In this document: in pieces, positions 18,152 through 38,437 of the stretch | How the letters are laid out: each line of letters starts with the position of its first letter | Position numbering within the stretch: the first letter of the stretch is position 1 | Assembly: GCA_017553785.1 (NCBI GenBank) | Contig: JAFZKD010000047.1 | Span: forward strand, 1 to 38,490 | Length of the DNA: 38,490 nt | Direction of reading: 5' to 3' | Source: Muribaculaceae bacterium | GTDB taxonomy: Bacteria; Bacteroidota; Bacteroidia; Bacteroidales; Muribaculaceae | The notes under the pieces: generated by a model | Told to the model about the DNA's origin: nothing | What the model saw: the letters and a program-made list of their open reading frames with translations, nothing else | Databases searched by the model: none | Program-made: the position numbers and the translations under genes

Positions 18152-18180
18152 TGCCTCCATAGGGATGGATGTCTAATGAA

Positions 18181-19740: not shown

Positions 19741-19940
19741 ATAAAAATAAGTCGCTGAAAATCAGTGACTTATAAATGAATTTGTTGAGTTGGATGGACT
19801 AACGAACGGTATTTCAAGAGTTGTTATAATACTTTAAGAGCCTGTGGTTTAGATGTTTGTGAACGGTTGTCATACTGTAATAATTGCTGAAAATTGCTAT
19901 TATATACCACAAAAGGGGGTACATTGTATTCCCCCCAAAA
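19741..19940 (+). repeat. Diverged direct repeat, copy B
   Basis: This is the second copy of the repeat at 18181-18380. It begins with the palindrome ATAAGTCGCTGA (19747-19758) / TCAGTGACTTAT (19762-19773), which pairs fully with one G-T wobble. It continues through TTTGTTGAGTTGGA, ATAATACTTT, TGTCATA and GCTATTATATACCACAAAA, and ends in the inverted repeat GGGGGTACA...TATTCCCCC. Internal bases differ widely from copy A while landmark order and spacing are kept, so the copies are old or are different members of one family. Confidence 0.6.
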
Positions 19941-20183: not shown

Positions 20184-20191
20184 TATCTTTG
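20184..20191 (+). promoter_or_regulatory. -7 box for the giant-gene operon
   Basis: TATCTTTG is a perfect Bacteroidetes -7 box; the upstream -33 area is A-rich without a clear TTTG. The leader to the ATG at 20320 is about 120 bases, longer than for other genes here. I see no comparable box in the three later gaps, so this may be the only promoter for all four genes. Confidence 0.6.
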
Positions 20192-20319
20192 CAGTGTGTG
20201 CTCACGTAGTATACATTTTGTTTTTTAGAAGTACTCCAAAGATACGTATAACTGTAATAGCCCTTTTCGGCCTCATTTTCATTTTCTTTGAATAATAAAC
20301 TATAGAATACCTGTGTTGT

Positions 20320-23300
20320 ATGGCGGAAAACTATAATATAATGTCTAAAGTAGCTCTTTTGCTCGAAAAGACAAGGGATGCGCTTATTGCCGACCTGCGT
20401 CAGGAATTTATCGGTGTGAGATGTGCTGCTCTAAAATTTGAGAAAGAACAGAGTGTCGAGAATTTTATTCCTGTGATTGATGCGGTCTTTGCTAGAGTCG
20501 GTTATGACATAAGCCACTATGAAGAACTGAGCGAGGTGCGCTCCTTTGTGGAAAAACTGCTGGGTGTGACCGACAAGATTGCCGGAGTAGTAAAAACTGG
20601 CAGCAAGATGTCCGATGACGGTGAGTTTACATCCGATGAGATCGCTAAGCTCTGTACTGACTTGTTACCATTGATCAAGGAGGTGATCGAGTTGGTAAGG
20701 CTCGTCAGCGACGTGGAGTGGGAGGCTGTGGCTGCCGATTTGGACAAGTCGAACCAAGACATTGCGCTATTTGTCAAAAACGAGCTGCTTACCAAGGAAT
20801 TTGCCCGCAAAGTACTCGATCACATCCTCGTGACCTTGCTCAAGAATGCCAAGGTGGTCTTCAAGGACGAAATAGAGTTTGCCAAGTTCACTATTGAATC
20901 TGGTGTTCAACAGCTCATTGATAACGCCAATGAATTGGGCAATGCTCTTGAAAAGAATGTCTTTGATGTGGTGGATGCAAAGGTCGAGCTGATCCAAAAC
21001 ACAATGCAGGAAACTTTGACTGACGCTACCGATCTTTACAACAGAGTGCGCAAGCAACTGGAGTCCCAAGCCACGAAAGATGTCCAGGCAATTGCCAAGG
21101 AGTATAAAGCCTCCTATGCCAAAATTGCTGACGGGCTGAGCATTACCTATAGCATTCTTGAATTCCTAGGAATTATCGAGCAGAAGGATGTGACGCTGCA
21201 GTTGCCTTACGGACTAAAGGAAGCCGTGGACAAGGTCCAGAGTGCTGTTGATGACGTATCAGGAAAGATCAATGCCGCTATAGATAAAGCCTCGCCTTTG
21301 GTTGCCGAAACAACATTTACTGTGGTAAGCACCATGGACGATGTCTTAAAGACCACCCGCGATGTCACTGGAATGGGAGTTGCGGCAGCAGGAACTATCG
21401 ACCTGCAACTTGCCATGGTGAATGACTTCATGATGGATGCCACGACCGACATCGCTACAGGACTCGCCTCGATTGAGGCCGGAGTAAAATCCACAATCAA
21501 GGATGTTAACAATTTTAAAAACCATGCTAACACTGTCGTAAACAAGTTCAGTGACGAGGTAAAGAGAATTAAGGACTGGCGTTATCCCATCAGCATCACT
21601 GTTATCAGTTGGGAGAAAGTGGAAGACTTATTCACTAATCCAGTCGACCACTTCAAGGCATTGTACCCCATCGAGAGCATGTCCGATGTAGAGAGCCTAA
21701 TGACCAGAATCATGGGCATCCTTCACAATATCAATTCTGATATCCCTGACTTCAGCTCGCTCAGGAAACTCCTTGAGGACCTCCTTCGCAAGTTGCAGAA
21801 ACACGTGATTAAGAAGATCAACGAACTTAAGGCTCAGATGAAGGATGTGGCAAGCGAGGTGAAAAAGAAAATCCAGAAGGTCATCAACGACATTTGGGAC
21901 TGGTTCCAGCCTGTTGTCACCACCATACGCAATGTCATCACCATGTTGAAGGAACTGGCTATCGCACTCAAGGATGAGATGGAAGCTGTCCTGGATGAGG
22001 TGAAAGAGGGTGCAAGACTCATTGCCGACGACCTGCAGAATGAATTCGAAACCATCAAGGGGAAACTTGAGAATGTGGGCGAAGCGGTAGAAGACTCAGT
22101 GAATAATGCCAGCGCTACCGTCAAGGCTGAGGTGGACAGTATGGTTACTGCAGCCAAAAAGAATATTGAAACGATTAACAAGAAGGCCGAAGAGTTCAAG
22201 AAAGGTGTCGAAGAACAGGTGAGGAATACCGTCAAAGACGCTGAGGACGCGATGAATGGTATCTCCCAGGATGCTGAGAAAAACGCTAGGGAACGGGTCG
22301 AAGCAGCTCAGGCATTGTGGAAGGATATCAAGAAGGACATGCCGAAGATGCCTAAACTCAACCTTCCCAAAGTGGTCAAAACCACGCTAGCCGAGCCAAT
22401 GGCCGATTGCGTGAAAAAGACCCTCAACGAGGCATTGGACTTTGACTTGTCCAGTGTCATCGATTTCGGCCAACAACGCGATGAACTGGTTGCTTGCATC
22501 GATGCACTGAAGGCCGATTATGACAGGTTCAAGGCAGGAAATTTCAACTCCGTCTCCTTGAATATCAGTGAGAAAGACTTCACTGCGGTGTACAATATCA
22601 ATTTCAACACCAGCTGGAAAACTGCAATGCAGCTGCCCGATATTCCCAAACTTGTCCAACAAGTTGTTGTGCCTGATCTGCAGGCATGGGCTTACGGCAT
22701 GGTGAACAGCGTTCAGACATTGGTCAGCCCCACGGTGTGGCAGTATCGACTCAACACGATGCTGACGCAGTTGAAGGCTGAATTCCAAAATGACCTGAGC
22801 AACATCACGGGGCTGATTTCCAAGAATGGTGCCCTCTGCCTTATCAGCGACCCCACGTCGGTCGGCGATCGGTTGGCTGCCAACCTGAACATCACTGACT
22901 ACATATCTATCGTCGAGACGGCTGTGCACGATGTGGTACTACCTGACCCGGAGTATTATTATACCAGTTTCAAACAGTGCGTTTTCGGTATCATCACCAA
23001 GTTCACAGCCCGCATCCTGGAGGAGGTTCAGCGCATGAAATCGAGCATCAAAAGCGCTGTAAACGAATTGAAGCAGTTACCGTCAACCGTCAAGACTAAT
23101 GTTGAGGCCCTCTTGGGCAAATTGGAGGAAGCGGAGAAAAAACTCGCCGATGAACTAAGCGCTAAGCAAGACAAAGCAAAGAATGAAGCGCTTCAGCTGG
23201 TGGGCGACATCAGGTCAACCGTAACGACGATCAAGCATATCGTAGAAAAAATACCCGAGACGATTGACAACTTGGTAGACTTTTTTGAGAATAAAGCCGA

Positions 23301-26300
23301 AGCTACGCTCAATCGTCTAAAGAACAATACAAATGAAGCCCTTGAGCAGATAGCCAAGAATTTTCTCAACAGGCTTGAGGATTTGGCAACCGAGATCTGG
23401 CGCAGATTCAAGAATGAGTATATCATTCCCATGCTCAAGGCCATCAAGAACAAGATCATCCACTTCATCAAGCATGTAATCAAGAAAAAGCTCCAAGAGC
23501 TGATAGATGCTTTCACCGACTTGAAGAGTGAGTCCCAGAATGGTATTAAGTCGTTGCTTAAAGACAAATCTTTCTTCAAGAAACTGCATGAAGAACAGGT
23601 GACCTTTGCCAATCAGGTGAACTCAGCACTCAAGTCATCAGGTAACGGCAGTGGCAACAACAGCAAGATTAAGAAGGCTCTGCCAGAAGGTGAACTCACC
23701 AATCTGAATCAATTGCCTGCTCTTATCGATGCAGTGAAGGACGACGAGAAACTGTCAAAGAGCATCTTTGAGAAAGCGAAATTCAATATACAGACTGAAG
23801 ATGGTGCGCCTGATATCAATGTACCTTATTATTATATAACGTGGGTGCAGAATGTTCTGGGCTCGACCGTCAACTTTGTCCAAAGCGATATGGGATTGAA
23901 AGAGATCCTGAAGCTTGTCCAGGCCTTGTATAATGGCATCCCTGCTGAGGTGAAACAGCATGTCTCAGAAGTGATGCCTTCATTGCCCTCATTGCCGAGC
24001 AACAGTTTCACCGATCTTCTTAATGATGTGACTTGCAGTTATGATCTCGACAACATGATGTGTAACGTCACACTTCTGGACCTCAAGCCAATGGAGGACT
24101 CGAAGCATAGTGATACACTGGACTGGGACGCTTCGCTCAAGTTGCAGCTCTTCATCATGGCTGGCCTGTATAGCAAGGACGGCTTCGTCGAGAAGAAAGA
24201 CGAGGAGGAATGCGATTCCAAAGATGATAAAGAGGACAATAAGATAGGAGACGACAAAAAAGACAATTCTAAAAATACGCCCTCGGACGAGACCGACGTC
24301 GAGGACAATGCCGTGCCTGCCATCTTCTTCACGATGATGCTGCAAGGCAAAGTGATTCTCACCTTCAGAATAGGTGATAACCATCACATTACCTTGAAAG
24401 GCGACGGCCAGATAGGTGCTGAAAAACTTACCGAGCAGACCAAGGACCTGAGTGTTGGATTCTGCCTGTCCAAAAAAGACTACGAAAAGGGCGTGACGAG
24501 CAGGGTGCATGGCTTCGGGTCGACCAAAAGCATGGGCGTTTTGCTCATGGGAGAGTTTAGCCGCAACGAGGGTACAGCACCGCTTGCGATGATTGAGTCC
24601 AAGTACATGGATGTGAAAATGGGCAATTATCCCATTGGTGCTTACGTGCTTTACAACCATGATTATCCCAAATTCCAGTTTAATGAAAAAGAGGAAAGCG
24701 GGATTGATATGGCCACATTCCTTGGAGCCGAACAAGGTAATACTGTGGATGGCTTCACCGCTGGTGTATTTGTCGCAGTCAAAGATTTTGAAATGGTGCT
24801 CAAACTGCGCCAGAATGACTTCTTTGCCACTTTCCTGAAGGATGACATTTCGGCCAAGTTTGATTTGCCCGTGGCTTACGACTACCTTAATGGCTTCAAG
24901 ATGGATGGCGGTTATTCGTTCCATCTCGACATCGATTGCGACAATAAGGAAATCGGTTCATTGAAGCTCAACAGCCTGGGAATTGACCTGGGTTCTGTCA
25001 AGGGTGACCTTGGCACATTGCAGTTGCAGGCCGTTCCTTCATTCAGCATCCAGCTGGGTGACTGTGTGACCATGTCATTCGACAAACTTGGCGTGGGAAT
25101 GGATCTCAACGTGGCCAAGATAAACTCATTAGGTAACTATAGCATCGGAGACTTTGATCCGGACTTCAGATTCAAGTTCCCCGAGGGCATTGGTATCGCT
25201 ATCGACTGCTCTGTTGTCAAGGGCGCTGCCCTGATTGGATATGACGACGAGAAAAAGGAACTCTTCGGAGCAATGGAGCTGAGTGTCCTAGAGAGGTTTG
25301 GCGTTTCGGCCATGCTCATGATGACATTTGGCGATAAATTCAGCATGCTTGCCATGCTGTCGACGCGCTTCACTCCTGGCGTACCTCTTGGACTGGGCTT
25401 CACGCTCACCGCCGTTGGCGGTATGTTGGGCCTTCACAGGATGCTCGACTACGATGCTATCCGTGACTCGGTCCACAATGGTTCGCTTGAGAGTGTCTTC
25501 TTTGTTCAAGATGTGATGAAGCACATTGGCGACATGCGCAAGGCTGCCGACAATATCTTCCCTGCCAAGCGCGACCAGTTCTTTGTGGGTCTGCTTGGCC
25601 AAATCAGTTATGAGCCTGTGGTGCGTTGCAGTTTCGGACTTATGTTCCAGGTGCCTGAGCCGTTCTCCATCATCATCGTTGGCGCATTGGCGGTAGCCAT
25701 TCAGGGGACCGATATCATTCGCATCAACGTGGCGTTCTCGGGCGAAATTGACTTCAAGAAGGGTCTGCAGTTCGATGCTTCGCTCTATGACTCGCAGATT
25801 GTTGGTCTACGTCTGGAGGGTGATATGGCATTCCGTCTATTCTGGGGCGGTCCCGCCAAGGGTTTCCTGATGAGTATCGGCGGTTTCCACCCGGCCTATA
25901 GACCAGAGGAGGCAATGCATGTGTCCGACATGCGTCGCTTGTCCATGAAGCTTGACTACAGTTTGCTCAAGGTGGGCCTTGAGACATACTTGGCCATTAC
26001 TTCCAACACGTTCCAGATTGGTGCTCATCTCGATATCAAGGTGGGATGGAGCAAATTTGGAATTGTCGGTTACGCAGGCTTTGATGCGCTCTTCCAGTTC
26101 GACCCGTTTATGTTCATGTTTGACATCGAGGCCGGCATGGCAGTGATGATTGGCAAAGCTCGGGTTTTATCAGTCGATTTGGCGCTGTCACTTTCGGGCC
26201 CGCGTCCGTGGCATGCCAAGGGCAAAGCAGAGTTCTCATTCCTCTTCATCCCCATTAAAGTCGACTTTGACATCAGTTGGGGTGACAAACAGCAGCAGTT

Positions 26301-26976
26301 GCCCAACAAGCAGATCAATGTCATCGAGTTGCTGCAGGAGCAGATTGATGACGGCAACAACTGGGTTATCAGTGATAATAGCCGCCGAGACCACGAAGTG
26401 CTACTTGTGAGCAGAAAAGAAGACAATGACAAAAATGATAACGGAGCCAAGGTACTCGTCCTTTCTCCTTCGGGTGAACTCTCATTCAGCCAAAGTGCCA
26501 TTCCTATGGAAATGGAAATGGAACTTTGCAACAATGCCATACCTACCGATATCAATGAGATTGTACTTGATAAAGTGGAGATGAATGGTCATACCTATGA
26601 AATCATCAATCATTCAGCCAAATTTGACGAGACCAAAGATGAGGAATTGGTGAAAAGAGCCATCGGTCAGACTGTCGATGCCGACTTTGCTCCAGCACTT
26701 TACCGCCTGATGGACAACGATCAGAAACTTAGGTCGCCTTCCTATGTCAAGTATCCCAGTGGCTTCTCTATGAGGAACAGCAACGAAAGGAAGTTCGGCA
26801 CTACTAATGAATGTGACTTGGGTGGTTATGAGACTTTCATCCGCAGTGACAACGGCAGCCAGAAGTCATCGGCTGGTGTTGCAGGTACTATCTCGACAGG
26901 CAAGCGGGTGGCTTACCAGAAGAATGACATGGCAGCATTTGAGCGCTATGTGAGCATTTTGGACAATATACAATAA
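20320..26976 (+). CDS. Giant helical-DUF6603 fusion protein
   Basis: The function of this 2218-aa protein is unknown. Either ATG at 20320 or 20341 could be the start; neither has a Shine-Dalgarno. There is no signal peptide or membrane helix. Residues 1 to about 1330 are almost all charged amphipathic helix and coiled-coil-like (for example ADDLQNEFETIKGKLENV and EEFKKGVEEQVRNTV), recalling apolipoproteins or tape-measure proteins. An acidic-lysine linker (KDDKEDNKIGDDKKDNSKN) lies near 1305-1330. The C-terminal half is beta-rich. Its part at about 1620-1990 has GFTLTAVGGMLGLHR (near 1693) and GGFHPAYRP (from 1854), then AITSNTFQIGAH, which I recognise as DUF6603. The tail has FAPALYRLMDN followed by QKLRSPSY, also family-like. 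It is the first and largest gene of a four-gene run. A scaffold or lipid-binding groove role is speculative. Confidence 0.85.
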   Translation: MAENYNIMSKVALLLEKTRDALIADLRQEFIGVRCAALKFEKEQSVENFIPVIDAVFARVGYDISHYEELSEVRSFVEKLLGVTDKIAGVVKTGSKMSDDGEFTSDEIAKLCTDLLPLIKEVIELVRLVSDVEWEAVAADLDKSNQDIALFVKNELLTKEFARKVLDHILVTLLKNAKVVFKDEIEFAKFTIESGVQQLIDNANELGNALEKNVFDVVDAKVELIQNTMQETLTDATDLYNRVRKQLESQATKDVQAIAKEYKASYAKIADGLSITYSILEFLGIIEQKDVTLQLPYGLKEAVDKVQSAVDDVSGKINAAIDKASPLVAETTFTVVSTMDDVLKTTRDVTGMGVAAAGTIDLQLAMVNDFMMDATTDIATGLASIEAGVKSTIKDVNNFKNHANTVVNKFSDEVKRIKDWRYPISITVISWEKVEDLFTNPVDHFKALYPIESMSDVESLMTRIMGILHNINSDIPDFSSLRKLLEDLLRKLQKHVIKKINELKAQMKDVASEVKKKIQKVINDIWDWFQPVVTTIRNVITMLKELAIALKDEMEAVLDEVKEGARLIADDLQNEFETIKGKLENVGEAVEDSVNNASATVKAEVDSMVTAAKKNIETINKKAEEFKKGVEEQVRNTVKDAEDAMNGISQDAEKNARERVEAAQALWKDIKKDMPKMPKLNLPKVVKTTLAEPMADCVKKTLNEALDFDLSSVIDFGQQRDELVACIDALKADYDRFKAGNFNSVSLNISEKDFTAVYNINFNTSWKTAMQLPDIPKLVQQVVVPDLQAWAYGMVNSVQTLVSPTVWQYRLNTMLTQLKAEFQNDLSNITGLISKNGALCLISDPTSVGDRLAANLNITDYISIVETAVHDVVLPDPEYYYTSFKQCVFGIITKFTARILEEVQRMKSSIKSAVNELKQLPSTVKTNVEALLGKLEEAEKKLADELSAKQDKAKNEALQLVGDIRSTVTTIKHIVEKIPETIDNLVDFFENKAEATLNRLKNNTNEALEQIAKNFLNRLEDLATEIWRRFKNEYIIPMLKAIKNKIIHFIKHVIKKKLQELIDAFTDLKSESQNGIKSLLKDKSFFKKLHEEQVTFANQVNSALKSSGNGSGNNSKIKKALPEGELTNLNQLPALIDAVKDDEKLSKSIFEKAKFNIQTEDGAPDINVPYYYITWVQNVLGSTVNFVQSDMGLKEILKLVQALYNGIPAEVKQHVSEVMPSLPSLPSNSFTDLLNDVTCSYDLDNMMCNVTLLDLKPMEDSKHSDTLDWDASLKLQLFIMAGLYSKDGFVEKKDEEECDSKDDKEDNKIGDDKKDNSKNTPSDETDVEDNAVPAIFFTMMLQGKVILTFRIGDNHHITLKGDGQIGAEKLTEQTKDLSVGFCLSKKDYEKGVTSRVHGFGSTKSMGVLLMGEFSRNEGTAPLAMIESKYMDVKMGNYPIGAYVLYNHDYPKFQFNEKEESGIDMATFLGAEQGNTVDGFTAGVFVAVKDFEMVLKLRQNDFFATFLKDDISAKFDLPVAYDYLNGFKMDGGYSFHLDIDCDNKEIGSLKLNSLGIDLGSVKGDLGTLQLQAVPSFSIQLGDCVTMSFDKLGVGMDLNVAKINSLGNYSIGDFDPDFRFKFPEGIGIAIDCSVVKGAALIGYDDEKKELFGAMELSVLERFGVSAMLMMTFGDKFSMLAMLSTRFTPGVPLGLGFTLTAVGGMLGLHRMLDYDAIRDSVHNGSLESVFFVQDVMKHIGDMRKAADNIFPAKRDQFFVGLLGQISYEPVVRCSFGLMFQVPEPFSIIIVGALAVAIQGTDIIRINVAFSGEIDFKKGLQFDASLYDSQIVGLRLEGDMAFRLFWGGPAKGFLMSIGGFHPAYRPEEAMHVSDMRRLSMKLDYSLLKVGLETYLAITSNTFQIGAHLDIKVGWSKFGIVGYAGFDALFQFDPFMFMFDIEAGMAVMIGKARVLSVDLALSLSGPRPWHAKGKAEFSFLFIPIKVDFDISWGDKQQQLPNKQINVIELLQEQIDDGNNWVISDNSRRDHEVLLVSRKEDNDKNDNGAKVLVLSPSGELSFSQSAIPMEMEMELCNNAIPTDINEIVLDKVEMNGHTYEIINHSAKFDETKDEELVKRAIGQTVDADFAPALYRLMDNDQKLRSPSYVKYPSGFSMRNSNERKFGTTNECDLGGYETFIRSDNGSQKSSAGVAGTISTGKRVAYQKNDMAAFERYVSILDNIQ

Positions 26977-26997
26977 TGGAATTAATACTTGTACAAC

Positions 26998-29900
26998 ATG
27001 GGTAATAAAGTATATATATTGAGGTATTTGCGCAAGGGTCTTGTTAACAATCTGCAAAAGATTAGTAAAGACCTCAAGACTTCCAAACGTGCGCAGATTG
27101 ACGTCAATCTCAAGTTCTGGATGAAGCATGTCGATTCCAAATTAATGGAAGAGAAGGTCCTGTCCGGACAAACGATAGAACTTCTCGGCCCTGCCGATGT
27201 CAAAAGCATCAACTCAAAAGCCATCAGCCGTGTCTCTCCTGCCGAGTCGGGTGATGTGCGTCTCAATGCCAGCTATCGGCCCTATGTGGAGTTCTATGAG
27301 GAAGACCTCCCGTGGCGATACACGCCATTCGCTCCAGATAGTCCTAGCGGTTTCTATCCGTGGATGAGGCTCATCGCTGTGAAGACCGAGGAATGTGCTA
27401 TTGTCTTCAAGAATGGAGCAAAGATTGCTCGCATCAATCTCACTGCCGAAAGGATCAAAGAGGTTTTCGCCACTCCCGAAGAACTTGCCAATAGTGCCCA
27501 TGCACAGATTGACGTTGAGGACGACTTCCAGGGAACACTTGACGAGGCTACCGTCAACCAGATGCTCGATGAGAACCCCGATTGCGGCATCTCGCGCGTG
27601 CTATGTACCAGCAAATTGGAGCCTGGCACCGAGTATGTCATACTCCTCATACCCACCTATGAGCATGGTCGCTTGTCGGCATTGGGTAAGAGCCTTGACG
27701 GAGCGAAAATGAACGACCTGGTCACACCTCAGCCAGACACCGATTTTGAATTACCCATTTACTACAAGTGGAAATGCACCACAGCCTCACGGCAAGGCAC
27801 CTTCAAGGATCTGGCCGATAAGTTGAATTTCACATCAGCTGCAGACTATGACAAGATGGATGCCAACCTCACGGTTGACATCAGCCACTCGGGGTTGAAG
27901 ACGGTCAGCTTTGATGGCGAGAAAAAGATTGATGTCCCGGCTGCCCTCGTGATGAGCAGTGACCCCTACAGCAACCTTGAGGACGAAGGCAAGCAGTACC
28001 GCACTGAGCTGCAAAAGCACCTCTCGCTCAATCCGGTCTTTGACGAGAATGAGTTAGAGGAAGTCAACCAGGACGAAGACCCTTGGGTCGTGCCCCCCGT
28101 CTATGGAGCTCGCCATCTGTTGACAACGCGCAAGAATTTTGAGAAAGGTCCCGATGCTGGTGTGGTCAATGAGGTGAATCTCAAGTTGCATAACCGCATT
28201 GCTGCAGGCTTGGGTGGCTCGGTGGTCATGAAAAACCAGGAGAGCTTTGTCAATCGTGCTTGGCAGAGTGTCGAGGTTGTCAACGCACTGAACCAGATGC
28301 TGCGCGAGTATTACCAGATGAAAGAAGTCAACGAGTGTGCCAAGGACAAGAACAACAGGTCATCGATTAACAAAGACTCCCTCAACAAGCAGAACGAAGG
28401 CCTGATTAGTGACGCTGCCATTAGAATGCTCCAGACATCAGGCATCTATTATAATAATAAGGCAAAAGTGGACCCCGACACTCTGCTTGATGATTACAAG
28501 AAGATGACTGCAGCCGACAGTGGACTTGTCAGTTCGGGATTAACTAAGGATTATCTTGCCAGCCTCTATGCTCCTGATTTGTGGCAAAAACTCATCGATC
28601 AAGACAAAAAGATTGACGCTGTTAATGAGCAAATTAAATATTATACCAAACAGTTTAGTGACAATAACGCATGGGATCTATCAGGTATGTCTGATATAGA
28701 TTTCCTAAAAGATCTCTTCGAGACAAGGATATACAATGGCAAGGCGAGATTTGTTATCAAACCTGGTAGTTTCGAGAAAATGGGTATAACCCCAGAGTCA
28801 ATCTTAATGTCAACAGAATTTGATAAAATTGATGACCTTCTCCATAATAAAAAGAATAAAGAGGTTAACATGTCGGATCTATGTGGATGGCTCAATGGTC
28901 TTAAGGACCGCTATGAAACATTCAATGAAAATCACAGGCCAAGTTTCCCGGTATTTGGTGATGATTGTAATAGTTTGTCGGATCCAATCTATCCTTATCC
29001 CATCAATGTCTTGAATATTTATGGTGTTACTGTTATTGTCCCGGACAGTAGCTACAATAAAATCACTATTAACGATAAACCGTTAGGAGGTAAACCATTA
29101 GCTATTGAATACTATTATTTTGACAATCAAATCTCAAATTCTCCTAACTATTTTTTCATCGTTCCCAAGTCATACTTGGATTCATTAGAAAACCCCGAAC
29201 GTACGTATTATATGCGCTTTTTTGGAACGTTGACAGAATTGAATTATTTGCAAGGTCAATTTTATATTAGTCCAGGCCAACAGTATTCTTCTTTACAAGA
29301 AGCCTTTAATGAAACAACAAGTTGTTTTCTATATAAACAGTTGAATGCTCATTATAATTGGATGCAAACTCGTAATACCACCTTTTTGGTCAATTCAGAA
29401 AAAGCTGATAAACATACTTTCCATTCGAAAGATAAACCTGATTTTGAATTCAAAATGACGAGCCAGGGACTTAAGACACATATTAATAGTAAAATTTCGA
29501 TAGAGGGTAAGAAGTATGACTATGTTTGGTTGAAATGGGACAAGGGAGTATACTCAGATAAATTTTCAGATTTGGGCAGTGGTCCCGTATGGGAATTGGA
29601 TTTACCGTTATACCGTCAAGTAATTTTGGATTTGTTGGACAAACTGGAAAACTTTTATTCATTGATTCGTCAGCCATCCGATGTTAAGTTTTATTTGGAT
29701 GTTTATGATAATAATTGCATTATTATTTCACCCAATGAACTGTTTAATGCCTTAATTGAGAAAGCAAGACAAGACAAAAATGTCATTGGTGAAATGAACA
29801 ATGATTTGCAGAGAATAAAGGATGAGGTCGTAATTCAGAAAGGCAAGATTGAAGAGGAGTTTAAATTAGTTCCACAGGCAACATTCCCGACTCAAAGCGT

Positions 29901-30681
29901 TGAAGCCGCTGTCATTGATGTCATTGATCCCAATCAGTTGGCAAAGGACAGAATCAAAGAACTGGAGACGAAATATGGAGTAACCGAATTCAATCAGTTG
30001 GAAGATAGACTCTGCGACAAGTATCCCGTCATGGTTCACCCCGATTTCCTCGATCCCACCTACTTCTATTTGCGGGAACTCTCGGTTGACTATGTGCTGC
30101 CGGCTTCGGGTAGCCTTGCCAAGAACAGTATCTCTTGCTTCTATAGCAATCAGGCTTTTGAAGAGGCGTTCCTGTTGGGCATGAACACCGAGATGGGACG
30201 CGAGCTCATGTGGCGAGAGTATCCTACCGACCAGCGTGGCTCTTACTTCCGCAAATTCTGGGATCAGACCGAGTTGCCCAAGAAAGAAGAATTGAAGAAG
30301 AAATATTATGATATCGAGGACATTGACAAGTGGAAAAATAAACTCGGCAAGAACCATCGAACTGGAAAGTCTCCAATGCTGGTGTTCGCCATTAAGGGTG
30401 AACTCATGCAGACTTACCCGGATACCGATGTCTATCTCCAGAAGATAGGTGTAGGAGGAAAACCTGCCGACGAGATAATAAAGCAGGAGATGGCTTCATG
30501 GCTCTCGCCGGACACTTATCTTGTTGGCTTCAGCCGAATCAGCAAGGAAGACCTCAAGAGCTACTATCTCGTCTTCAGGCAAAGGCCTCTGTCGCTGCAG
30601 TTCTCTAAAGAGTCAGAGAATCAGAGCAATCCATATGGTATTGTCAATCCGCAATGTTACCTCATGGTTGCCGCCCAATGA
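26998..30681 (+). CDS. Giant-operon protein 2 (DLPWRYTP / WREYPTDQRG family)
   Basis: The function is unknown. I use the ATG at 26998; a TTG three codons upstream is less likely. The product is 1227 aa with no signal peptide or membrane helix. Near the N-terminus is VEFYEEDLPWRYTPF (97-111), followed by FYPWMRLIAV. Near the C-terminus is ELMWREYPTDQRGSYFRKFW (1069-1088), then MLVFAIKGELMQTYPDTDVY and a final YYLVFRQRPLSLQF. I associate these three blocks, from memory, with large uncharacterised proteins found with DUF6603 in other phyla. The middle (about residues 547-965) is encoded by clearly AT-richer DNA and has no motif I recognise; it may be a swapped variable domain. A short coiled coil is likely near 945-1010. 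It starts 21 bases after the DUF6603 gene. Confidence 0.82.
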   Translation: MGNKVYILRYLRKGLVNNLQKISKDLKTSKRAQIDVNLKFWMKHVDSKLMEEKVLSGQTIELLGPADVKSINSKAISRVSPAESGDVRLNASYRPYVEFYEEDLPWRYTPFAPDSPSGFYPWMRLIAVKTEECAIVFKNGAKIARINLTAERIKEVFATPEELANSAHAQIDVEDDFQGTLDEATVNQMLDENPDCGISRVLCTSKLEPGTEYVILLIPTYEHGRLSALGKSLDGAKMNDLVTPQPDTDFELPIYYKWKCTTASRQGTFKDLADKLNFTSAADYDKMDANLTVDISHSGLKTVSFDGEKKIDVPAALVMSSDPYSNLEDEGKQYRTELQKHLSLNPVFDENELEEVNQDEDPWVVPPVYGARHLLTTRKNFEKGPDAGVVNEVNLKLHNRIAAGLGGSVVMKNQESFVNRAWQSVEVVNALNQMLREYYQMKEVNECAKDKNNRSSINKDSLNKQNEGLISDAAIRMLQTSGIYYNNKAKVDPDTLLDDYKKMTAADSGLVSSGLTKDYLASLYAPDLWQKLIDQDKKIDAVNEQIKYYTKQFSDNNAWDLSGMSDIDFLKDLFETRIYNGKARFVIKPGSFEKMGITPESILMSTEFDKIDDLLHNKKNKEVNMSDLCGWLNGLKDRYETFNENHRPSFPVFGDDCNSLSDPIYPYPINVLNIYGVTVIVPDSSYNKITINDKPLGGKPLAIEYYYFDNQISNSPNYFFIVPKSYLDSLENPERTYYMRFFGTLTELNYLQGQFYISPGQQYSSLQEAFNETTSCFLYKQLNAHYNWMQTRNTTFLVNSEKADKHTFHSKDKPDFEFKMTSQGLKTHINSKISIEGKKYDYVWLKWDKGVYSDKFSDLGSGPVWELDLPLYRQVILDLLDKLENFYSLIRQPSDVKFYLDVYDNNCIIISPNELFNALIEKARQDKNVIGEMNNDLQRIKDEVVIQKGKIEEEFKLVPQATFPTQSVEAAVIDVIDPNQLAKDRIKELETKYGVTEFNQLEDRLCDKYPVMVHPDFLDPTYFYLRELSVDYVLPASGSLAKNSISCFYSNQAFEEAFLLGMNTEMGRELMWREYPTDQRGSYFRKFWDQTELPKKEELKKKYYDIEDIDKWKNKLGKNHRTGKSPMLVFAIKGELMQTYPDTDVYLQKIGVGGKPADEIIKQEMASWLSPDTYLVGFSRISKEDLKSYYLVFRQRPLSLQFSKESENQSNPYGIVNPQCYLMVAAQ

Positions 30682-30717
30682 ATACTATAACATGTAGTCT
30701 CAATTTACTCTAAGCAA

Positions 30718-33700
30718 ATGAAAAAATATCAAGATATTTTAAGGGATGTGACCAGTAGGAACCTTGCTGCAAAAAAGGTGAACACCTCACTGCTGATGTT
30801 GCCGCTCCGACTGGAAACCAAGATCATGTACAGGCGTGTGGATAAGACTGATGAACCCGAGAAAGTGTTATATGCTTTCAAGTCCCTCCACAGCCTGCTG
30901 CAGAGCTATCACAGGTTAGCGGGAGCGGTAGATAAAGGCGAAATTGAGGTCGCCACTAGAAACCTGAAGCAACAGATGCGTGAAACCATCCACTGTTTTG
31001 AAACCATCGACTTGCTTTATGCCGAGGATAAGTCCTATCTGAACGATCTGGTAACCAACATCCATAATTCACTCCACACAGTGGAACTGCAGGATGCTTT
31101 TGCGCCCTTGATCGACACTCTTGATGACATTCCTCGTCTCACGTCCCACAGTGATAAGGGTGCCACCAATTACCTGAACGAGTTGGACCGCATTACCCGT
31201 ATGCTGGAAAACATGGTCAATTGTCCGCTCTTTACCGGAAGAAGACGTGATGGCCAATTTGCCACCTATTCTCAGACAGCCCGTTTCCGATATGCATACA
31301 AGCGTTATAAGGAAATCAACAGCTGGTTCCAGCCGACAGGCAAGGGACGAAAGATCACGGCATTGGCTAACAGCATCCATTCAGGGATGATAACTAAGAG
31401 CCAATGCATCAGGTTTGATAACCTGATTAAGCGCATCAAGAAGGCTATCACATTTGCTCCACTAAGTGATGATAATCATGGGGGTCTTAGACAGGCTCAT
31501 TCAAATTTGACAAAAGGATATCCTTATGAGCATAATATTAATCCTGAAGATAATCTATATGCATATGGGGTTCGTTTTGTAATGGATGAAGGGTATGAAA
31601 AAGCATTGGAGGAATTCCACGTAAGTCTTTACCCGAATAATCCCGTGGCTGGCCGTAATAAGTATTTCCATTATAATCGTATGGTAAAAATGGCGGGTCT
31701 TTTATATGATAACCTCACTTCATTCATCAATAATGACTTTGAAGGGGTAAAGACTAGTCTTAATGCGAAAACCTGTAAACCAAAGGGACGGAAAAAGCCA
31801 TGTTCCATAAGATATACATTGATTGTATCTAAGTTATTGAGGGTCGAACTCTTGTTAGCCAAGGCCGCACATGCTAAGAATCGCCGGATGCGCCGTCCCT
31901 ACCTGAAAGCTGCTTATAAATGCCAGTCTTCGCTGCTTTCCTCTTTAAATGAAAAGATCTACTTCACCTATGGGGCACAGCGTTCGTTTGTAAAAGATCT
32001 GTTAAATGATATCATCAGTATAGATAATAATGCACGTAGGCATTATACCCAAACGGCTCTTCCTGATCTTGGAATGTGTTTTAATATTAGGCGTAAAGTG
32101 CCGTTGAAAAAGGCTAAGAAGCGTAAGTGCTTGTGCCTGAGAATCTACCCCGATGTGGTAGCGCTCACTCAGGCCGTAAGACAGATAAGTCGTGAGGAGT
32201 ATCTTGCCGGCAAGGACTTCTGGCTCAAGTATATCTTTAATGATGACGAGAAGTATCGACAGTCGCTGTGGTTGGCCATCTGCGACCTGTTCCCCGCTCA
32301 TCGTTCAGCTTTTATCTTGAAAAGCACGTTCCCGAAGGGGAACTATGCTGTCATGTGCCGCAAGGCAAGGGAGTTCCATGACAACAACATGACTATTGAC
32401 GACTTCATCAAGGAAATCGATGAAAATTTTGTCAACTCATTCCCTACGACCTATGTTGACAACGGAGAACAGTTGTTCACTGTACCGGTCACCAACCTCT
32501 TGCCAGACCGCTTTGTAGTTCATGCTGCAGTAAAGACCAAAGTCAATGCCAGCCGTACCATTATTCAATATGGCCATCGTCTACCCAAGCAGCTGCAAGT
32601 AGGCCTAGACCTTAACAATCTCGATACTGCCACTAAAGAGTTAGTCATTGACAGTCATGGCAGAAAGCAGTTGTATCTCAATGGAGGATTGAGCTGGATG
32701 ACCGACTACGATGAGGCAGAACGCCTGGGTATGGCCATCACCATCCCGCTGGATGCCATGAAGACAGGTCTGAAAAAAACTAAAGTCCGCAATTTTGAGT
32801 TTAATCAGATCATTGTGTACGGCGTCAACGACTCCAGCACTTATGAGTCTAACAAGATGATCAAGGACTTGATGACGGGTAGCCTGTACTCTGATAAGGC
32901 CATGGACATCATCTCGTTTGAAACAGCAACTAACATCATTACCAACGAGGATGCTAAATATGCCTTTGACAGTTCTGAGGAGAAGCAGCGGGAACGCTTC
33001 CAGTATCAGGCCTACAACTGTGTGAACCCGCACGTGCCCGAGAGGGGTAATGACCTTGACATCCTTGACCGCCTCCTGTGCCTCAACGAGAGTGTTTTGG
33101 GCAACATCGATGTGCCAGGTGAACCCGGGCAGGCCGAGGTTGAGCTCCAGAGGCGTGTTAACAGCTTAATGATTGAGTATATCACGGATAGTAGATTGTG
33201 CCCTGTTATTAATCCGTTAATCAATGCCATCAAGAATAGCCCCACGCTGCATGATTACTTGTGCAACGATGTCTTGTCTCGCGGACCGTTCCCCATGATG
33301 CGAATAGGCGACCAGCCTTACGGCATCCTCCCTGCTTGTGACTTTAGGAACTTGGCTGTGAGGGCAAGCAATCCGTTGGCCATTGTCAAGAAAATCCTGC
33401 TTTTGCTCACTATCCATTGGAATAACATCCTAAGCACGAATATCGTGACTTGCTATGGCAAGGACTCTGACAATAGTAATACGACAGTCACAACTAATGA
33501 TTACCTCGACATCCTTGGCAACACGCCTCGCAGCACATCGTTTTACAGGAGAAAGATGGTCCAGAGCGGCATTATCGATGCTGAGTACTTCCGTGGTGAG
33601 ACCTATCATCACCAGATCGAGGAACTCATGAAGATTGCCAAAAGCCTCAATCTTATCAAGGAAGAGGATCGCGATCAGATCAAGAAAATCATCCCCAACT

Positions 33701-36252
33701 ATGACTTTGTCCCCATGAAGATCAAGGATCCCAACGCACAGGATGAGGCCTATTTCTATATCAAAGATGCGCTAGGGATAGATAAGATTGTAAATACTCT
33801 TTGCGAGACAATAGAATACGATAATAAAAAATATCCTAACGGTATTCAGTTGAGTGCTTCACCTGACATCATCCGTAATTACGTTATCGAGTTCTTTGAC
33901 CTCTTCAATTATCGCCTCGATGCATGGATAATGGGTATTCTGAACAACAAAATACGCACGAGAATGAACTGCGGAAGACATCGTCTGGCTCTGGGCTGCT
34001 TCGGATGGCTGTTCAACCTTAGGGAAGTGGATGACTATAAGCTGGGCAGCACCAATGAGTATATCGTAGCGCCCTCGATTAATCAAGCTATCACTGGAGC
34101 CATACTGCGCAGTTCTTACAACAATAGCCTCAAAAACGGCAAAGCCCACAACTATGACATGAGTGTTAACCTGTCGTCAGAGCGTGTGAGATCAGCCATC
34201 CGCATCATTGAGGGCATTCAGAACGGACTCTCGCTGGGCTGCATCCTGGGTGCCGATATGGAACGGCTCATTCACGAGGCGTGGAAGACCAAGCCCGAGT
34301 TGGAACTTGACAGTTGCATCTATCCGCTCCGCATTGCTTATCCGTTGATGAAAAAAGACCAGGATGATGCCGTCGATGCGGCTGATGGCTCACCGGCCAA
34401 TATCACCGTGCTCAACGGTGCCCGTCTCCTGGAAGATTATACTGCTCGAAAAAATGCCGGGAAAGATGCTGTCATAGCATGGCTGAAGTTGTTTGTCGGC
34501 ATCACGAAACAGAATGAAAAAATTGAAAAGTTGATTAACATAATCGACATTATTGATGATGAGAAGGATGCGCTCACCGATGTCGTCCTCTCTGAGAGCG
34601 TTTATAAGCTCACGCAGGGCAATACCGAGGCCTCAGCAGCGATTAGCCGTGCCTTGAAGGAACTGAAGAATATCCCGATGCCCGAGGTAACTGAAATCCC
34701 CATATCCAGCGCTCAGATTGACAACTACATGCTGGCAATGCTGCCTGCCTCGGTCAAAAGCATTGAGCAGAGCAACCTGCTTGCCAACATTGAACCTAAA
34801 GTCGATGCCTGGTTGTGCAAGATGATGCATCGTCCCGATAATATCTACATGCGACCTCGCATCATTAAGGAGAGCGCGTTTTCTTTGGGTTCTCTGGGCA
34901 TCAGTGCATCTGAGATGGTATATCTCTCGGCCGACAAGACATCGTTTACACATTTTGTCGAGGTGCTCGCTTGGATGAAGACTGGAACATTCAGGAAAAT
35001 GGCTGATTGTGAAAGCGGCTTTGCACTCAAGGGTGACGACAAGCATGCCTTCGGAGAGTGTGCGATGGCTATCGACGAGTTGCGCAAGGTGCTGGCTTCA
35101 GCCCGCCCGCTCACCAACGATGACCTAGTGAAGCAAACGGGCCTTTCCTCGTCGGCAGTCTATAGCGAGATGAGTGATGAGTACCATCACGTGGAAGGGT
35201 ATATCACTCGTCTGCTTGTTGATATTAAGCAACTCAGCGAGCGTCAACAGGAGATTCAGAATCCTGAGAATGCCGATTACGAAATGGTCGCTTTGCCTGA
35301 TGACATGGTGGCAGAGGCTGTCAGAATTTTGCTTGACTGCTATCGCATCGGCTATACCATGGCTCTTGATGCAGTTGACCAAAATGTCTTCATTGGTCAA
35401 AGAAATCTCATCGATGGGGTAGTGGAGTGGAAGGAAACAGTACAGGCCCAGCATGCATTGTTCAAGTCCATGCTGATGCTTTATGACAATATGCAGGCCA
35501 AACTAGCCGAGGCTGCCCAAATGATTGCGGCTGATGCTGAGCGCAAGTATACCACCTATGTTGAAGCGCTCAAGACCGTGCTCGTATCAGGCTACCTTGT
35601 CGTGCCATCTTTCCGTCCCGACGAGAATGTGCCTATCGCTGACCTCGCTGATCAGGCCGCAGAAGATAGGTTTGACAACATCAATAGGATGGAGCTTGAG
35701 GCAATGATGGGTGACCTGGCACTGGTAGAGCAGCCGATGATGAATCTGCATCAGCTAAGGTTATTCCAGAAGTGTGATGACATCGATGCTCCCGGCATCG
35801 TTCCCATGCAGCTTGCTTCGGTGGAGAACAATATTGGGGTCAATCAGTGGCTTGGCACCACCGTCGCTAGCGAGGATGAAGTGAGGGATGCCTTCACCTA
35901 TATCGTGATGAGCCCAGAGTACTTCGTTGTAGCTTCATCTGAGCAGGAGCCCCTGCTTGCAGGAATCGTGATTGACCATTGGATTGAACGCATCCCATAT
36001 AGGGACCAGACTGCTGCCGTGGCATTCGGTTATGACCAGCCTGATGCCGAGGCACCCCAGACGCTCTTGCTTGCCGTTGCCACCAAGGACAACAACAAGG
36101 GCTGGAATGAGAAGATGCTTGTCAACTCCATCAAGAGCGCCATCCACATGGTGAAGTGCCGCACCGTGAGTCCCGACTTGCTGAGCAAGGACGGGTGGGC
36201 GAGCGGCCTGTTCCCCCTGCTCGAGTATAAGGATCCTCGCAACTCGAATTAG
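30718..36252 (+). CDS. Giant-operon protein 3 (RIGDQPYGILPA family)
   Basis: The function of this 1844-aa protein is unknown; it has no signal peptide or membrane helix. Conserved-looking blocks in order: LLMLPLRLETKI (near 26); LCLRIYPDVVALT (near 473); VPVTNLLPDRFVVHA (near 590); LSWMTDYDEAERLGMAI; RIGDQPYGILPA (862-873); YRLDAWIMGIL; ALGCFGWLFNL; APSINQAITGAILRSSY; NLSSERVRSAIRIIEGIQNG (near 1150); and AFGYDQPDAEAPQTLLLAV (near 1768). I recognise this order as a recurrent large-protein family without known function. The N-terminal 460 residues are helical and locally very basic (AKNRRMRRPYLKAAYK), and include an AT-rich segment. A coiled-coil-like part lies near 1480-1620. It begins 36 bases after gene 2 and is followed by gene 4 after 60 bases. 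Confidence 0.82.
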   Translation: MKKYQDILRDVTSRNLAAKKVNTSLLMLPLRLETKIMYRRVDKTDEPEKVLYAFKSLHSLLQSYHRLAGAVDKGEIEVATRNLKQQMRETIHCFETIDLLYAEDKSYLNDLVTNIHNSLHTVELQDAFAPLIDTLDDIPRLTSHSDKGATNYLNELDRITRMLENMVNCPLFTGRRRDGQFATYSQTARFRYAYKRYKEINSWFQPTGKGRKITALANSIHSGMITKSQCIRFDNLIKRIKKAITFAPLSDDNHGGLRQAHSNLTKGYPYEHNINPEDNLYAYGVRFVMDEGYEKALEEFHVSLYPNNPVAGRNKYFHYNRMVKMAGLLYDNLTSFINNDFEGVKTSLNAKTCKPKGRKKPCSIRYTLIVSKLLRVELLLAKAAHAKNRRMRRPYLKAAYKCQSSLLSSLNEKIYFTYGAQRSFVKDLLNDIISIDNNARRHYTQTALPDLGMCFNIRRKVPLKKAKKRKCLCLRIYPDVVALTQAVRQISREEYLAGKDFWLKYIFNDDEKYRQSLWLAICDLFPAHRSAFILKSTFPKGNYAVMCRKAREFHDNNMTIDDFIKEIDENFVNSFPTTYVDNGEQLFTVPVTNLLPDRFVVHAAVKTKVNASRTIIQYGHRLPKQLQVGLDLNNLDTATKELVIDSHGRKQLYLNGGLSWMTDYDEAERLGMAITIPLDAMKTGLKKTKVRNFEFNQIIVYGVNDSSTYESNKMIKDLMTGSLYSDKAMDIISFETATNIITNEDAKYAFDSSEEKQRERFQYQAYNCVNPHVPERGNDLDILDRLLCLNESVLGNIDVPGEPGQAEVELQRRVNSLMIEYITDSRLCPVINPLINAIKNSPTLHDYLCNDVLSRGPFPMMRIGDQPYGILPACDFRNLAVRASNPLAIVKKILLLLTIHWNNILSTNIVTCYGKDSDNSNTTVTTNDYLDILGNTPRSTSFYRRKMVQSGIIDAEYFRGETYHHQIEELMKIAKSLNLIKEEDRDQIKKIIPNYDFVPMKIKDPNAQDEAYFYIKDALGIDKIVNTLCETIEYDNKKYPNGIQLSASPDIIRNYVIEFFDLFNYRLDAWIMGILNNKIRTRMNCGRHRLALGCFGWLFNLREVDDYKLGSTNEYIVAPSINQAITGAILRSSYNNSLKNGKAHNYDMSVNLSSERVRSAIRIIEGIQNGLSLGCILGADMERLIHEAWKTKPELELDSCIYPLRIAYPLMKKDQDDAVDAADGSPANITVLNGARLLEDYTARKNAGKDAVIAWLKLFVGITKQNEKIEKLINIIDIIDDEKDALTDVVLSESVYKLTQGNTEASAAISRALKELKNIPMPEVTEIPISSAQIDNYMLAMLPASVKSIEQSNLLANIEPKVDAWLCKMMHRPDNIYMRPRIIKESAFSLGSLGISASEMVYLSADKTSFTHFVEVLAWMKTGTFRKMADCESGFALKGDDKHAFGECAMAIDELRKVLASARPLTNDDLVKQTGLSSSAVYSEMSDEYHHVEGYITRLLVDIKQLSERQQEIQNPENADYEMVALPDDMVAEAVRILLDCYRIGYTMALDAVDQNVFIGQRNLIDGVVEWKETVQAQHALFKSMLMLYDNMQAKLAEAAQMIAADAERKYTTYVEALKTVLVSGYLVVPSFRPDENVPIADLADQAAEDRFDNINRMELEAMMGDLALVEQPMMNLHQLRLFQKCDDIDAPGIVPMQLASVENNIGVNQWLGTTVASEDEVRDAFTYIVMSPEYFVVASSEQEPLLAGIVIDHWIERIPYRDQTAAVAFGYDQPDAEAPQTLLLAVATKDNNKGWNEKMLVNSIKSAIHMVKCRTVSPDLLSKDGWASGLFPLLEYKDPRNSN

Positions 36253-36312
36253 TTGCTCTAAGGGATGTGTGATGCTCATGACTTTTTGTTGAAATAAATA
36301 ATCCAATATAGC

Positions 36313-38295
36313 ATGAATGAACAATATATAAAAACTGCTGAGAATTACCTGCAGGGCGTGGCAAATTCCTATGGTGAGGGTAATTTGGAGGGCGTTATCA
36401 CTAATGGTAATCAACTTCAGGTGTCGTTCAAAAGCCGCATTGAGGGACGCACTCGCGACATTGACCCGACCGAGGCCATGCGATTGCGTGTGCACGACCC
36501 CTTGTGGATGCTGGCACGACAGTGGCAGATGGGTGAATTCCGTGGCAACAACACGGGCACAGCCATGTCTGTGAGATGTGCAGTGAGATATGATGACTGT
36601 TCCAGCGATCCCATCGAACCGGTTACCGAGCAGATTAACCCTTGCATTGATTTCCTTGCTAGAATCGAGTCGGCGGTCTATTTCCTCGACTTGCTGAAGA
36701 GCACACAAGAGGGCAGGGATTTGGCTAAAACGCTCCGTCTTTGGCTCATCAAGCAATTCCCCATTAATTGGGAAGCGGTTGGTGCGTTGGTGCTGCCCAA
36801 TGCTGTCACTAAGGCCGAAGAGATGAAGCTCAACAGGCATCTCCAAAACTATGCAAAGGCCTACAAGGGAAAAATATTTGATGGAGCGGCGCTTTATCAA
36901 TATTTGTCTCAAGACCAGGGAAAGGCTGAGGCTTCTCCAAAGGCAGCATCGCCTCTTGAAAGGTCTTTGATGCTCGTTAAAAGTAAGTTCATAGCATGGT
37001 TTGAAAAGAAATACAAGCCCGCATCTTCTACCAATCAACACTGGCAGGCTGCTGACTTGTGCTACACAGTTGAGACTGAAGTGGCTGGGAAAACCTACAA
37101 GAGTGACAACTATCAAGGTGGACGCCTCTCGTGGTATACTTTTGATTATGAATTGAAACTTAAAGGCTTGAATGAACTCAAGCCGGGCGTTAGGCCTGTG
37201 TTAGAGCCCATCCCTGATCAAGTGCTCAGCCTCCCGACACCTGCAACCTTTGCTGCTGCACCCAACAAGCGACTTTGGCAGATGGAAGACCGTAAGGTGT
37301 TTATGGGCAACAGCGTCGAGGAACCTTCAGAGGCCAACTCGGTAGTGATGAGATATGCCACCATGTATTCCAACGACTGGATGCTCTTCCCGTTGAGTAC
37401 CGAAATTGGCAAGTACATCACGGTGAAGAAAATTGAGGTGGTAGACACCTTTGGCGAGTGCTTTAGCATTGATGAAAAAGACCGTGCAGGAAACAAGGGA
37501 CAATTGGGTGAGTATGAGGAGCAGTGGCAGGCGTTCACCAACTCTACCGTGGGTAACCGCAAGCGCACACTGGTCCATGGTCTCTACTTTGCTCCACAGT
37601 TGGCAGCCACGGTCGAGGGTAAGCCTATTGAGGAGGTGAAAATCCTGCGCGACGAGATAGCCAACATGGTTTGGGGCGTGGAGAACGTTGTTCCTGACGG
37701 TTGCGGAGGCACACTTGATGCCAACCTTTACGCTACGAGATTGGGAACCATCGTCAATGAACATAACAAGGCGGGTGAACCCGTGCGAGAGCCAGATACC
37801 ATCACTTTTGGTCAAAATACCGGACCCGTGGTGGAGAAAGTTGAAGCCGGTGATACTCCCAAAGCTAAGTTCACCTATCAGCTGCAATCTTCGGTGCCGT
37901 TCAACTGGATACCATTCATCCCACAGCGGCTTCAAACCGAGGAATCAAAGAACTTGCCCTTCTTCTTGGGTGGCAGGGAAATCATCTTGCGCCGTGGCAA
38001 GATGCCTTGCTATATCTTCAATAAAGATCACTTCGACCTGTTGGCTGTCCGCCCGCAAGGATCCATCATGCGTCCTGTTTTGAAATTAACCAAGAATGGG
38101 GATCACAAAGTCAAGGAAGAGCCCATGGTAATCCATGAAGAGGCCGTCCAGGCTACAGGTATCAGGCTGACCAAGAACTATCAGCGTGCCCGTTGGATAG
38201 GGGGTAAGACTTATCAGTGGTTAGGCATCTACAAGCGTCAGGCCCAGACCGAGGCTTCGAGCGGTCTCGTCTTTGATCAGTTAAAGGAAAAATAG
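36313..38295 (+). CDS. Giant-operon protein 4 (DPLWMLARQWQMGEF family)
   Basis: The function of this 660-aa soluble-looking protein is unknown. The hallmark is RVHDPLWMLARQWQMGEFRG at residues 59-78, preceded by SRIEGRTRDIDP. Further blocks are NDWMLFPLSTEIGKYITV with VVDTFGECF, VKILRDEIANMVWGVENVV (about 442-460), SVPFNWIPFIPQRL, and YQRARWIGGKTYQWLG near the end, then SSGLVFDQL. All recall one conserved family that I have seen beside the RIGDQPYG and DUF6603 proteins. Its stronger conservation and smaller size suggest a core subunit. No enzyme motif, signal peptide or membrane segment is seen. It closes the four-gene run; inverted repeats and a possible IS end follow within 60 bases. Confidence 0.82.
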   Translation: MNEQYIKTAENYLQGVANSYGEGNLEGVITNGNQLQVSFKSRIEGRTRDIDPTEAMRLRVHDPLWMLARQWQMGEFRGNNTGTAMSVRCAVRYDDCSSDPIEPVTEQINPCIDFLARIESAVYFLDLLKSTQEGRDLAKTLRLWLIKQFPINWEAVGALVLPNAVTKAEEMKLNRHLQNYAKAYKGKIFDGAALYQYLSQDQGKAEASPKAASPLERSLMLVKSKFIAWFEKKYKPASSTNQHWQAADLCYTVETEVAGKTYKSDNYQGGRLSWYTFDYELKLKGLNELKPGVRPVLEPIPDQVLSLPTPATFAAAPNKRLWQMEDRKVFMGNSVEEPSEANSVVMRYATMYSNDWMLFPLSTEIGKYITVKKIEVVDTFGECFSIDEKDRAGNKGQLGEYEEQWQAFTNSTVGNRKRTLVHGLYFAPQLAATVEGKPIEEVKILRDEIANMVWGVENVVPDGCGGTLDANLYATRLGTIVNEHNKAGEPVREPDTITFGQNTGPVVEKVEAGDTPKAKFTYQLQSSVPFNWIPFIPQRLQTEESKNLPFFLGGREIILRRGKMPCYIFNKDHFDLLAVRPQGSIMRPVLKLTKNGDHKVKEEPMVIHEEAVQATGIRLTKNYQRARWIGGKTYQWLGIYKRQAQTEASSGLVFDQLKEK

Positions 38296-38400: not shown

Positions 38401-38437
38401 CCGCCTGAGATTGCGATATATCTCAGGCGGCGATTTT
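38401..38437. terminator. Strong GC-rich hairpin followed by T run
   Basis: CCGCCTGAGAT (38401-38411) pairs perfectly with ATCTCAGGCGG (38420-38430), and CGATTTTTT follows. It looks like an intrinsic terminator on the + strand, possibly guarding an IS from read-through or ending the giant-gene transcript. Confidence 0.6.

Follow-up and report, generated by a model that had tools for sequence, protein, structure and literature searches.

Tc (ABC) toxin complexes combine several giant proteins with a variable enzyme (PMC6868009). Extracellular contractile injection systems (eCIS) are patchily distributed over bacteria (1.9% of them) and archaea and carry variable toxins (PMC8213781); their operons of 15-28 genes encode sheath, tube, baseplate and an ATP supply, with effectors usually at the 3' end. 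Here we describe an operon of four giant genes, A to D, in a 38,490-nt stretch of DNA from a Muribaculaceae bacterium (GenBank contig JAFZKD010000047.1; this whole stretch is referred to as the window). Like the Tc toxins, this module pairs giant proteins with a variable enzyme gene, and like eCIS it is patchy, is found in bacteria as well as archaea and has a variable enzyme. It differs from the Tc toxins in that A-D gave no match to a TcA, TcB or TcC family in Pfam or NCBIfam, in that its enzyme is encoded by a separate upstream gene, and in that it is also present in haloarchaea. It differs from eCIS in having only four to five genes with the enzyme gene at the 5' end, and in that no sheath, tube, baseplate or AAA domain was detected above cut-off in A-D. 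By the features tested, the module would appear to belong to neither.

Protein A carries DUF6603, a domain of unknown function, and B, C and D lie outside all Pfam families. The first-pass annotation, made from the sequence without database searches, had stated that no function is described for these proteins, and we likewise found none: none of the open-access papers searched names DUF6603 or PF20248, and wider searches among them returned nothing on the operon. Close to 5,950 residues in four families for which no described function was found are kept as a unit over 11 bacterial phyla and the haloarchaea.

Four giant genes form a module of fixed order

The open reading frames (ORFs) of the window bear out the earlier picture of four same-strand giant genes with about 5,950 residues: A+B+C+D total 5,949 residues, and the A-B, B-C and C-D gaps are 21, 36 and 60 nt when the B start is taken as the ATG at 26998 (Table 1). 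The conserved-looking blocks quoted at that stage are present, one per protein, and the single -7 box reported is TATCTTTGC, upstream of A, with none inside the operon. The box is labelled by the pattern TAnnTTTGY, which we take to be the Bacteroidota-type -7 consensus; a pattern scan gave three plus-strand matches beyond position 16000 and none within the operon. Judged by a crude Kyte-Doolittle measure, which applies to all hydrophobicity values given here, none of A-D in the window has a signal-peptide-like start, as had been proposed. The accompanying proposal of no membrane helix holds for B, C and D, whose highest 19-aa means are 1.44 or lower, while A has one borderline hydrophobic stretch near residue 1782, within DUF6603, with a mean of 2.01. 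The host assembly (2.54 Mb, 122 contigs, 80% complete, the window lying on contig C52) has one place each for A, B and D when searched with these three.

We scanned 84,980 species genomes with D, obtaining at least 589 pattern stretches, of which 553 were confirmed, and analysed the best 80 loci. C adjoins D in 76 of the 77 loci that could be evaluated, B is in place in 66 of 67 and A in 43 of 49; DUF6603 was present in 40 of 40 D genomes searched from among the 80. The sole C exception (L043) belongs to a genome whose DUF6603 match lies in two distant pieces, and the sole B exception (L024) has just ~400 nt available before C. In the six loci without A, B begins 374-1409 nt from the locus edge, and in two of these (L092, L094) the contig carries a DUF6603 match 2.7-2.8 kb upstream of B. 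Viewed from the other end, a B match follows A in 27 of 30 regions of this operon type, referred to as type I (L098-L127); the remaining three regions end inside A or shortly beyond it. Median intergenic gaps of -1, 12 and 4.5 nt, calculated from ORF starts that were not curated, suggest translational coupling. One case speaks against co-occurrence: in L134, which is a second copy in a Leptolyngbya genome, the ORFs that follow A are unrelated and B is missing. L133 and L134 both show C-D of one copy followed directly by an upstream gene, of the kind described below, and A of a second copy, so that tandem operons are possible.

A tblastn search with D identified 14 plasmid records, from haloarchaea, Streptomyces, Nocardia, Gemmatirosa, Rhizobium and Paraburkholderia. 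B is also on 13 of these, the exception being from S. anthocyanicus, and profiles recovered the order A-B-C-D in nine of the ten records examined. On the Rhizobium plasmid B is divided between two genes and so is C, and on a Halobellus plasmid B is in two genes and C in three. Among 112 genomes of the Nannocystis phylum, DUF6603 occurs in five and D in two, both of which have A; in genome G813 D occurs at three places, and A lies on the same contig 6.6-7.5 kb upstream of two of them but is lacking at the third. These data show that A-D are one module of fixed order whose families recur together across phyla, as had earlier been asserted. That the module may be an obligate multi-subunit machine, as had also been proposed, is a fair inference.

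A second operon type shares A and B

In a sample of 395 Bacteroidota genomes, drawn evenly and including the window's own, DUF6603 was above cut-off in 16, with a 17th match (G444) under it. D was found in eight of the 395, and in every one of these the contig and strand of D also held a DUF6603 match, 7.8-10.2 kb upstream. The remaining eight DUF6603 genomes have a second operon type (type II) with A', B' and a protein C' of 1200-1400 aa. A C' search over all 395 genomes returned exactly these eight, and the 16 therefore split into eight of type I and eight of type II. Homologues that are mostly single and unlinked, which had been set beforehand as the outcome that would count against a joint system, were thus not what we observed. 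Neither type II nor the variable gene upstream of A had featured in the first-pass annotation.

The order of type II genes is variable: C' mostly comes after A'-B', and it comes before A' in L130, L145 and both copies in G401. G643 has a partial C' match (E 5.7e-28). B' and B are distant relatives by hhalign (probability 94.5, E 8e-8), and pairwise comparison detected no homology of C' with C, C' with D, or D' with D. An A+B core is common to both operon types. The only protein scanned from the D' position, that of L140, matches the S74 tail-spike chaperone domain (E 1.1e-8) and, weakly, a Dit-like family (E 0.0085). Type II A' frames reach 3,894 aa, with long additional N-termini in L128, L129, L130, L137 and L141. 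The L129 frame appears spurious over its initial ~800 residues; by eye its N-terminal half also contains an alpha/beta-hydrolase-like segment, so that an enzyme may be fused to A' there.

Protein A matches DUF6603 (PF20248) with E 7.6e-93 and 312 bits against a cut-off of 27, which places it within the family, and this was the only family match above cut-off for A-D in Pfam and NCBIfam. The A proteins of three genomes of the window's genus are 2216-2236 aa long; type I A frames elsewhere are mostly about 1,100-1,230 aa, and relative to these the window's A has ~1,100 additional, mainly helical N-terminal residues. In L154 (genome G447, 1-6237, minus strand) A has a different extension of ~1,000 residues, which by eye is repetitive and rich in beta-strands. 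An extended beta-groove fold like that of bridge-like or AsmA-type lipid transfer proteins may be present, going by a likeness judged by eye. For B, C and D the best Pfam and NCBIfam matches (E 0.059 and 0.076) were below cut-off, profiles of A-D against PDB gave nothing significant (best E 0.058, for C), and comparison of D with C gave a probability of only 6.5.

An exchangeable gene usually precedes A

We examined the position immediately upstream of A, here called the slot, in 52 type I loci. A raw count gave 39 loci with a same-strand gene, one with an opposite-strand gene and 12 with none within 300 nt. After correction of L126, where the counted gene is A itself split by a stop, and of L014 and L118, whose annotated ORF or longest ORF is on the opposite strand, the counts are 36 same strand, three opposite, 12 none and one A fragment. 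L102 has a same-strand ORF of 532 aa that overlaps the over-extended start of its A and is nevertheless scored as none. Among the 14 type II loci, 11 have a same-strand gene, two an opposite-strand gene and one none; some of these genes look like bystanders, for example a RecG helicase, and type II slots also include metallo-beta-lactamase-fold and DUF4135 proteins.

The first 35 slot proteins, which include L135 and three type II loci, comprise 18 families. Trypsin/Nal1-like proteins are the most numerous (7 by cluster, with a GDSG motif in 7/7 and the His motif in 6/7), followed by PhoD-like proteins (6 by cluster and 5 by Pfam, with GDQIYAD in 5/5 checked), galactose-oxidase-like proteins (3) and M64 proteins (2, with HExxH in both). 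There are single cases of a subtilase, a phospholipase D and a class 3 lipase, the last from type II locus L128, with the phospholipase D and lipase motifs present. L133 is probably an M23 protein, judged from its HxxxD and HxH motifs; one slot protein has a PG_binding domain, and three further loci beyond the first 35 have subtilases (S8). The M1 protein of L135, 365 nt away and with a signal-like start, is probably unrelated. Cultivable hosts that have a full operon and a slot gene include Chitinophaga filiformis DSM 527, whose slot is PhoD-like, and Nannocystis, whose slot is trypsin-like. N-terminal hydrophobicity exceeds 2.0 in two of the 35 (L135, L137) and is just under that value in L134 and L125. 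Five slot proteins searched against PDB gave one weak match, of L107 to protein-asparaginase (E 0.0022 over 36 residues). Tandem related copies stand before A in L103, L109, L105, L106, L112, L116 and L017, as two or three M64-cluster genes or as pairs from the trypsin cluster.

For 28 type I loci having both a slot family and a row on the D tree (14 families, L135 excluded), slot families change 17 times on that tree, where the least possible is 13 and 200 shuffles gave a mean of 20.0 and a lowest value of 18. Two loci at 68% D identity have different slot families. These results indicate that the slot is exchanged, with some inheritance. The usual neighbour upstream of A is thus shown to be an exchangeable gene, often a hydrolase or oxidase without a signal peptide.

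Apparent transfer of the whole operon between phyla

Mirror-tree correlations among B, C and D, the three proteins compared, were 0.907-0.933 over 68 loci, where the maximum of 1000 shuffles was 0.293, and remained at 0.892-0.926 across the 1478 between-phylum pairs. On a D tree with 91 rows and 12 group labels, made by a quick method with no mixture model, there are 27 phylum changes, against a least possible 11 and a shuffled mean of 42.2, and starred pairs of mixed phyla occur, such as Kribbella with Chelatococcus. Phylum labels on this tree are clustered, yet far from a single origin per phylum, and the four genes seem to pass together from one phylum to another. The window's D is a long branch of unsure placement. 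In the window's genus D is present in three of 101 genomes, the window's own counted, and decaying copies exist: there is an in-frame TAA in D of a genus relative (G035:C3:66352-68205) and a TAG in A of L126. This patchiness and the mixing of phyla agree with the earlier suggestion of a mobile accessory system; the neighbouring cassette, which had been offered as a further reason, does not support it.

The D alignment held 58 of 61 non-redundant rows plus the window, L034, L036 and L092 being excluded for long or over-extended frames. The B alignment held 35 of 52 rows plus the window, the C alignment 33 of 56 rows plus the window, and the A alignment 25 loci picked by the extent of A within the flank.

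Proposed function and alternatives

The reading we favour, at somewhat less than even confidence, is that A-D are subunits of one scaffold or particle that carries or displays the slot enzyme. A, B, C and D would assemble as one complex, inherited and transferred as a unit, with the slot enzyme as its cargo or displayed part. The assembly would be made in the cytoplasm and then released, and the released particle would act either extracellularly or on a different cell; the absence of signal peptides, combined with enzymes of extracellular type, favours lysis, vesicles or an unknown exporter as the route of release. Isolated lamin-tail, FG-GAP, PG-binding and S74 domains among the relatives suggest a role that is extracellular or fibre-like. 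In the window, which has no enzyme gene before A, the helical N-terminus of A may replace the enzyme, or the enzyme may be encoded elsewhere. We infer by analogy that such an assembly would work in the manner of toxin complexes that carry an enzyme, or of extracellular injection particles, with no detectable relationship to them. More tentatively still, the module could represent an undescribed class of enzyme-carrying particle in bacteria and archaea, with two types, an A+B core and a slot exchanged between lineages, unrelated to phage tails and Tc toxins.

Several observations weigh against a released, enzyme-carrying particle. In 12 of the 52 type I loci, including the window, the 300 nt before A hold no slot gene; roughly 12 of the 34 slot proteins other than L135 lack a recognisable enzyme domain; and by motif patterns subtilase L114 has the Asp motif only and L100 no His pattern. 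No docking domain common to the 18 slot families was found in 153 pairwise comparisons (best probability 46). Downstream of D, one blastp cluster occurs on either strand in 11 loci (10 Bacteroidota, 1 Acidobacteriota), a second in 10 loci at scattered distances and all others in five or fewer; apart from the slot, no family among these partly annotated clusters has a fixed place in most loci, and hence no release or injection gene is known. Trypsin-like, S8 and phospholipase D proteins are, moreover, also known as intracellular effectors. A rather unlikely alternative is an intracellular conflict or defence system, with A-D as its large sensor or scaffold and the slot enzyme as an effector triggered inside the cell. 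Such a system would account for interchangeable slot proteins without signal peptides and for a patchy, accessory module scattered over phyla, and the window has PDC-M13B, a candidate gene for defence, 1.1 kb upstream, although by eye it was not seen upstream of A in two genus relatives. However, PADLOC holds no family that matches B or C, matches D only at E 0.043 and matches A only in its coiled stretches (ZorA/Leo-type, best E 1.6e-7); Pfam and NCBIfam gave no NTPase or nucleotide-sensor family above cut-off for A-D; and it is unusual for galactose-oxidase-like, PhoD, lipase or M64 enzymes to serve as intracellular effectors.

The module might instead be a surface or extracellular enzyme-display scaffold, serving adhesion or polymer degradation and not delivery into other cells, which we again regard as rather unlikely. 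The extracellular type of the slot hydrolases fits, as do a lamin-tail domain in the single D from haloarchaea that was scanned (with the same annotation in three records), FG-GAP in one Streptomyces B, the PG_binding slot protein and S74 in D'; yet none of the window's A-D and only two of 35 slot proteins have a signal-peptide-like start, no exporter-like family has a fixed place among the partly annotated clusters, and none of 36 B proteins, the window's among them, has a Pfam match. A lipid- or hydrophobe-binding scaffold, in which A supplies extended beta-sheet repeats and amphipathic helices and lipase, phospholipase D and PhoD slots act on lipids or phosphoesters, is decidedly unlikely: the A extension has apolipoprotein-type matches under cut-off (54 against 90 bits), the N-terminus of L154 A is by eye of repetitive beta type and a type II lipase and a phospholipase D are among the slot enzymes, but coiled coils of every sort tend to give such amphipathic matches and the recognised slot enzymes are mostly proteases, PhoD-like proteins and oxidases. 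Diverged descent from a contractile tail or phage particle is highly improbable. It would explain the S74 and Dit-like matches in D' of L140, tape-measure-type PHROG matches (best E 8.7e-19) and one baseplate-hub match (E 0.00045) in the coiled part of the window's A, and an unannotated record filed under phages with B-C-D and a trace of A. The tape-measure matches are, however, confined to the extension that typical A proteins do not have, the C-terminus of A has no phage match, B, C and D have no PHROG match to a tail or other family, viral contigs gave no relatives by D or B profile, and no sheath (Phage_sheath_1) was found in the 80% complete genome. The phage-filed record (L008, MT835531, a faecal 'Bacteriophage sp.', unverified) is the sole one found and is probably bacterial DNA.

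Should the slot enzyme prove to be cargo or a displayed part of the A-D scaffold, the module would be a delivery or display machine of a new kind, whose loading site is naturally modular; otherwise it would still be a large conserved complex without a function. In either case the slot enzyme offers a direct handle, with a known activity that can be assayed and traced through purification.

Features of the window and its neighbourhood

Table 1. Positions of the operon, its signals and neighbouring genes in the window
Feature	Position	Strand	Basis or remark
Gene A, DUF6603 protein, 2218 aa	20320..26976	+	ORF and family A profile
Gene B, 1227 aa from ATG	26998..30681	+	alternative TTG start at 26989
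Gene C, 1844 aa	30718..36252	+	
Gene D, 660 aa	36313..38295	+	
-7-like promoter box TATCTTTGC	20184..20192	+	pattern scan
Intrinsic terminator-like hairpin, then T6	38401..38430	+	after D
DUF6603 domain (PF20248), residues 1543-2087 of A	24946..26580	+	
Additional stretch of A, mainly helical and coiled-coil-like, about residues 1-1120	20320..23679	+	
DUF3990 protein	18739-19254		E 3.7e-41
Nonribosomal peptide synthetase, 2416 aa	8973-16223		two condensation, two adenylation and two carrier domains, terminal reductase-type domain

Upstream of the operon, between the peptide synthetase and the DUF3990 gene, the ORF at 17561-18151 probably encodes an Sfp-type phosphopantetheinyl transferase, judged from a motif. 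The toxin-like cassette reported beside the operon is real: besides its family assignment, the DUF3990 protein has a weak ART-PolyVal match (E 0.00046, under cut-off) and is the PADLOC candidate PDC-M13B (E 1e-38), and together with the small ORFs seen by eye on either side it suggests a toxin-antitoxin-like cassette. Two genus relatives with the operon have, by eye, other genes upstream of A, unlike this cassette. Flanking the cassette, two similar AT-rich stretches at 18180-18212 and 19740-19772 each contain, by eye, the hairpin AAGTC(A/G)CTGAAAATCAG(C/T)GACTT; the pair could be terminators or the ends of a small mobile unit.

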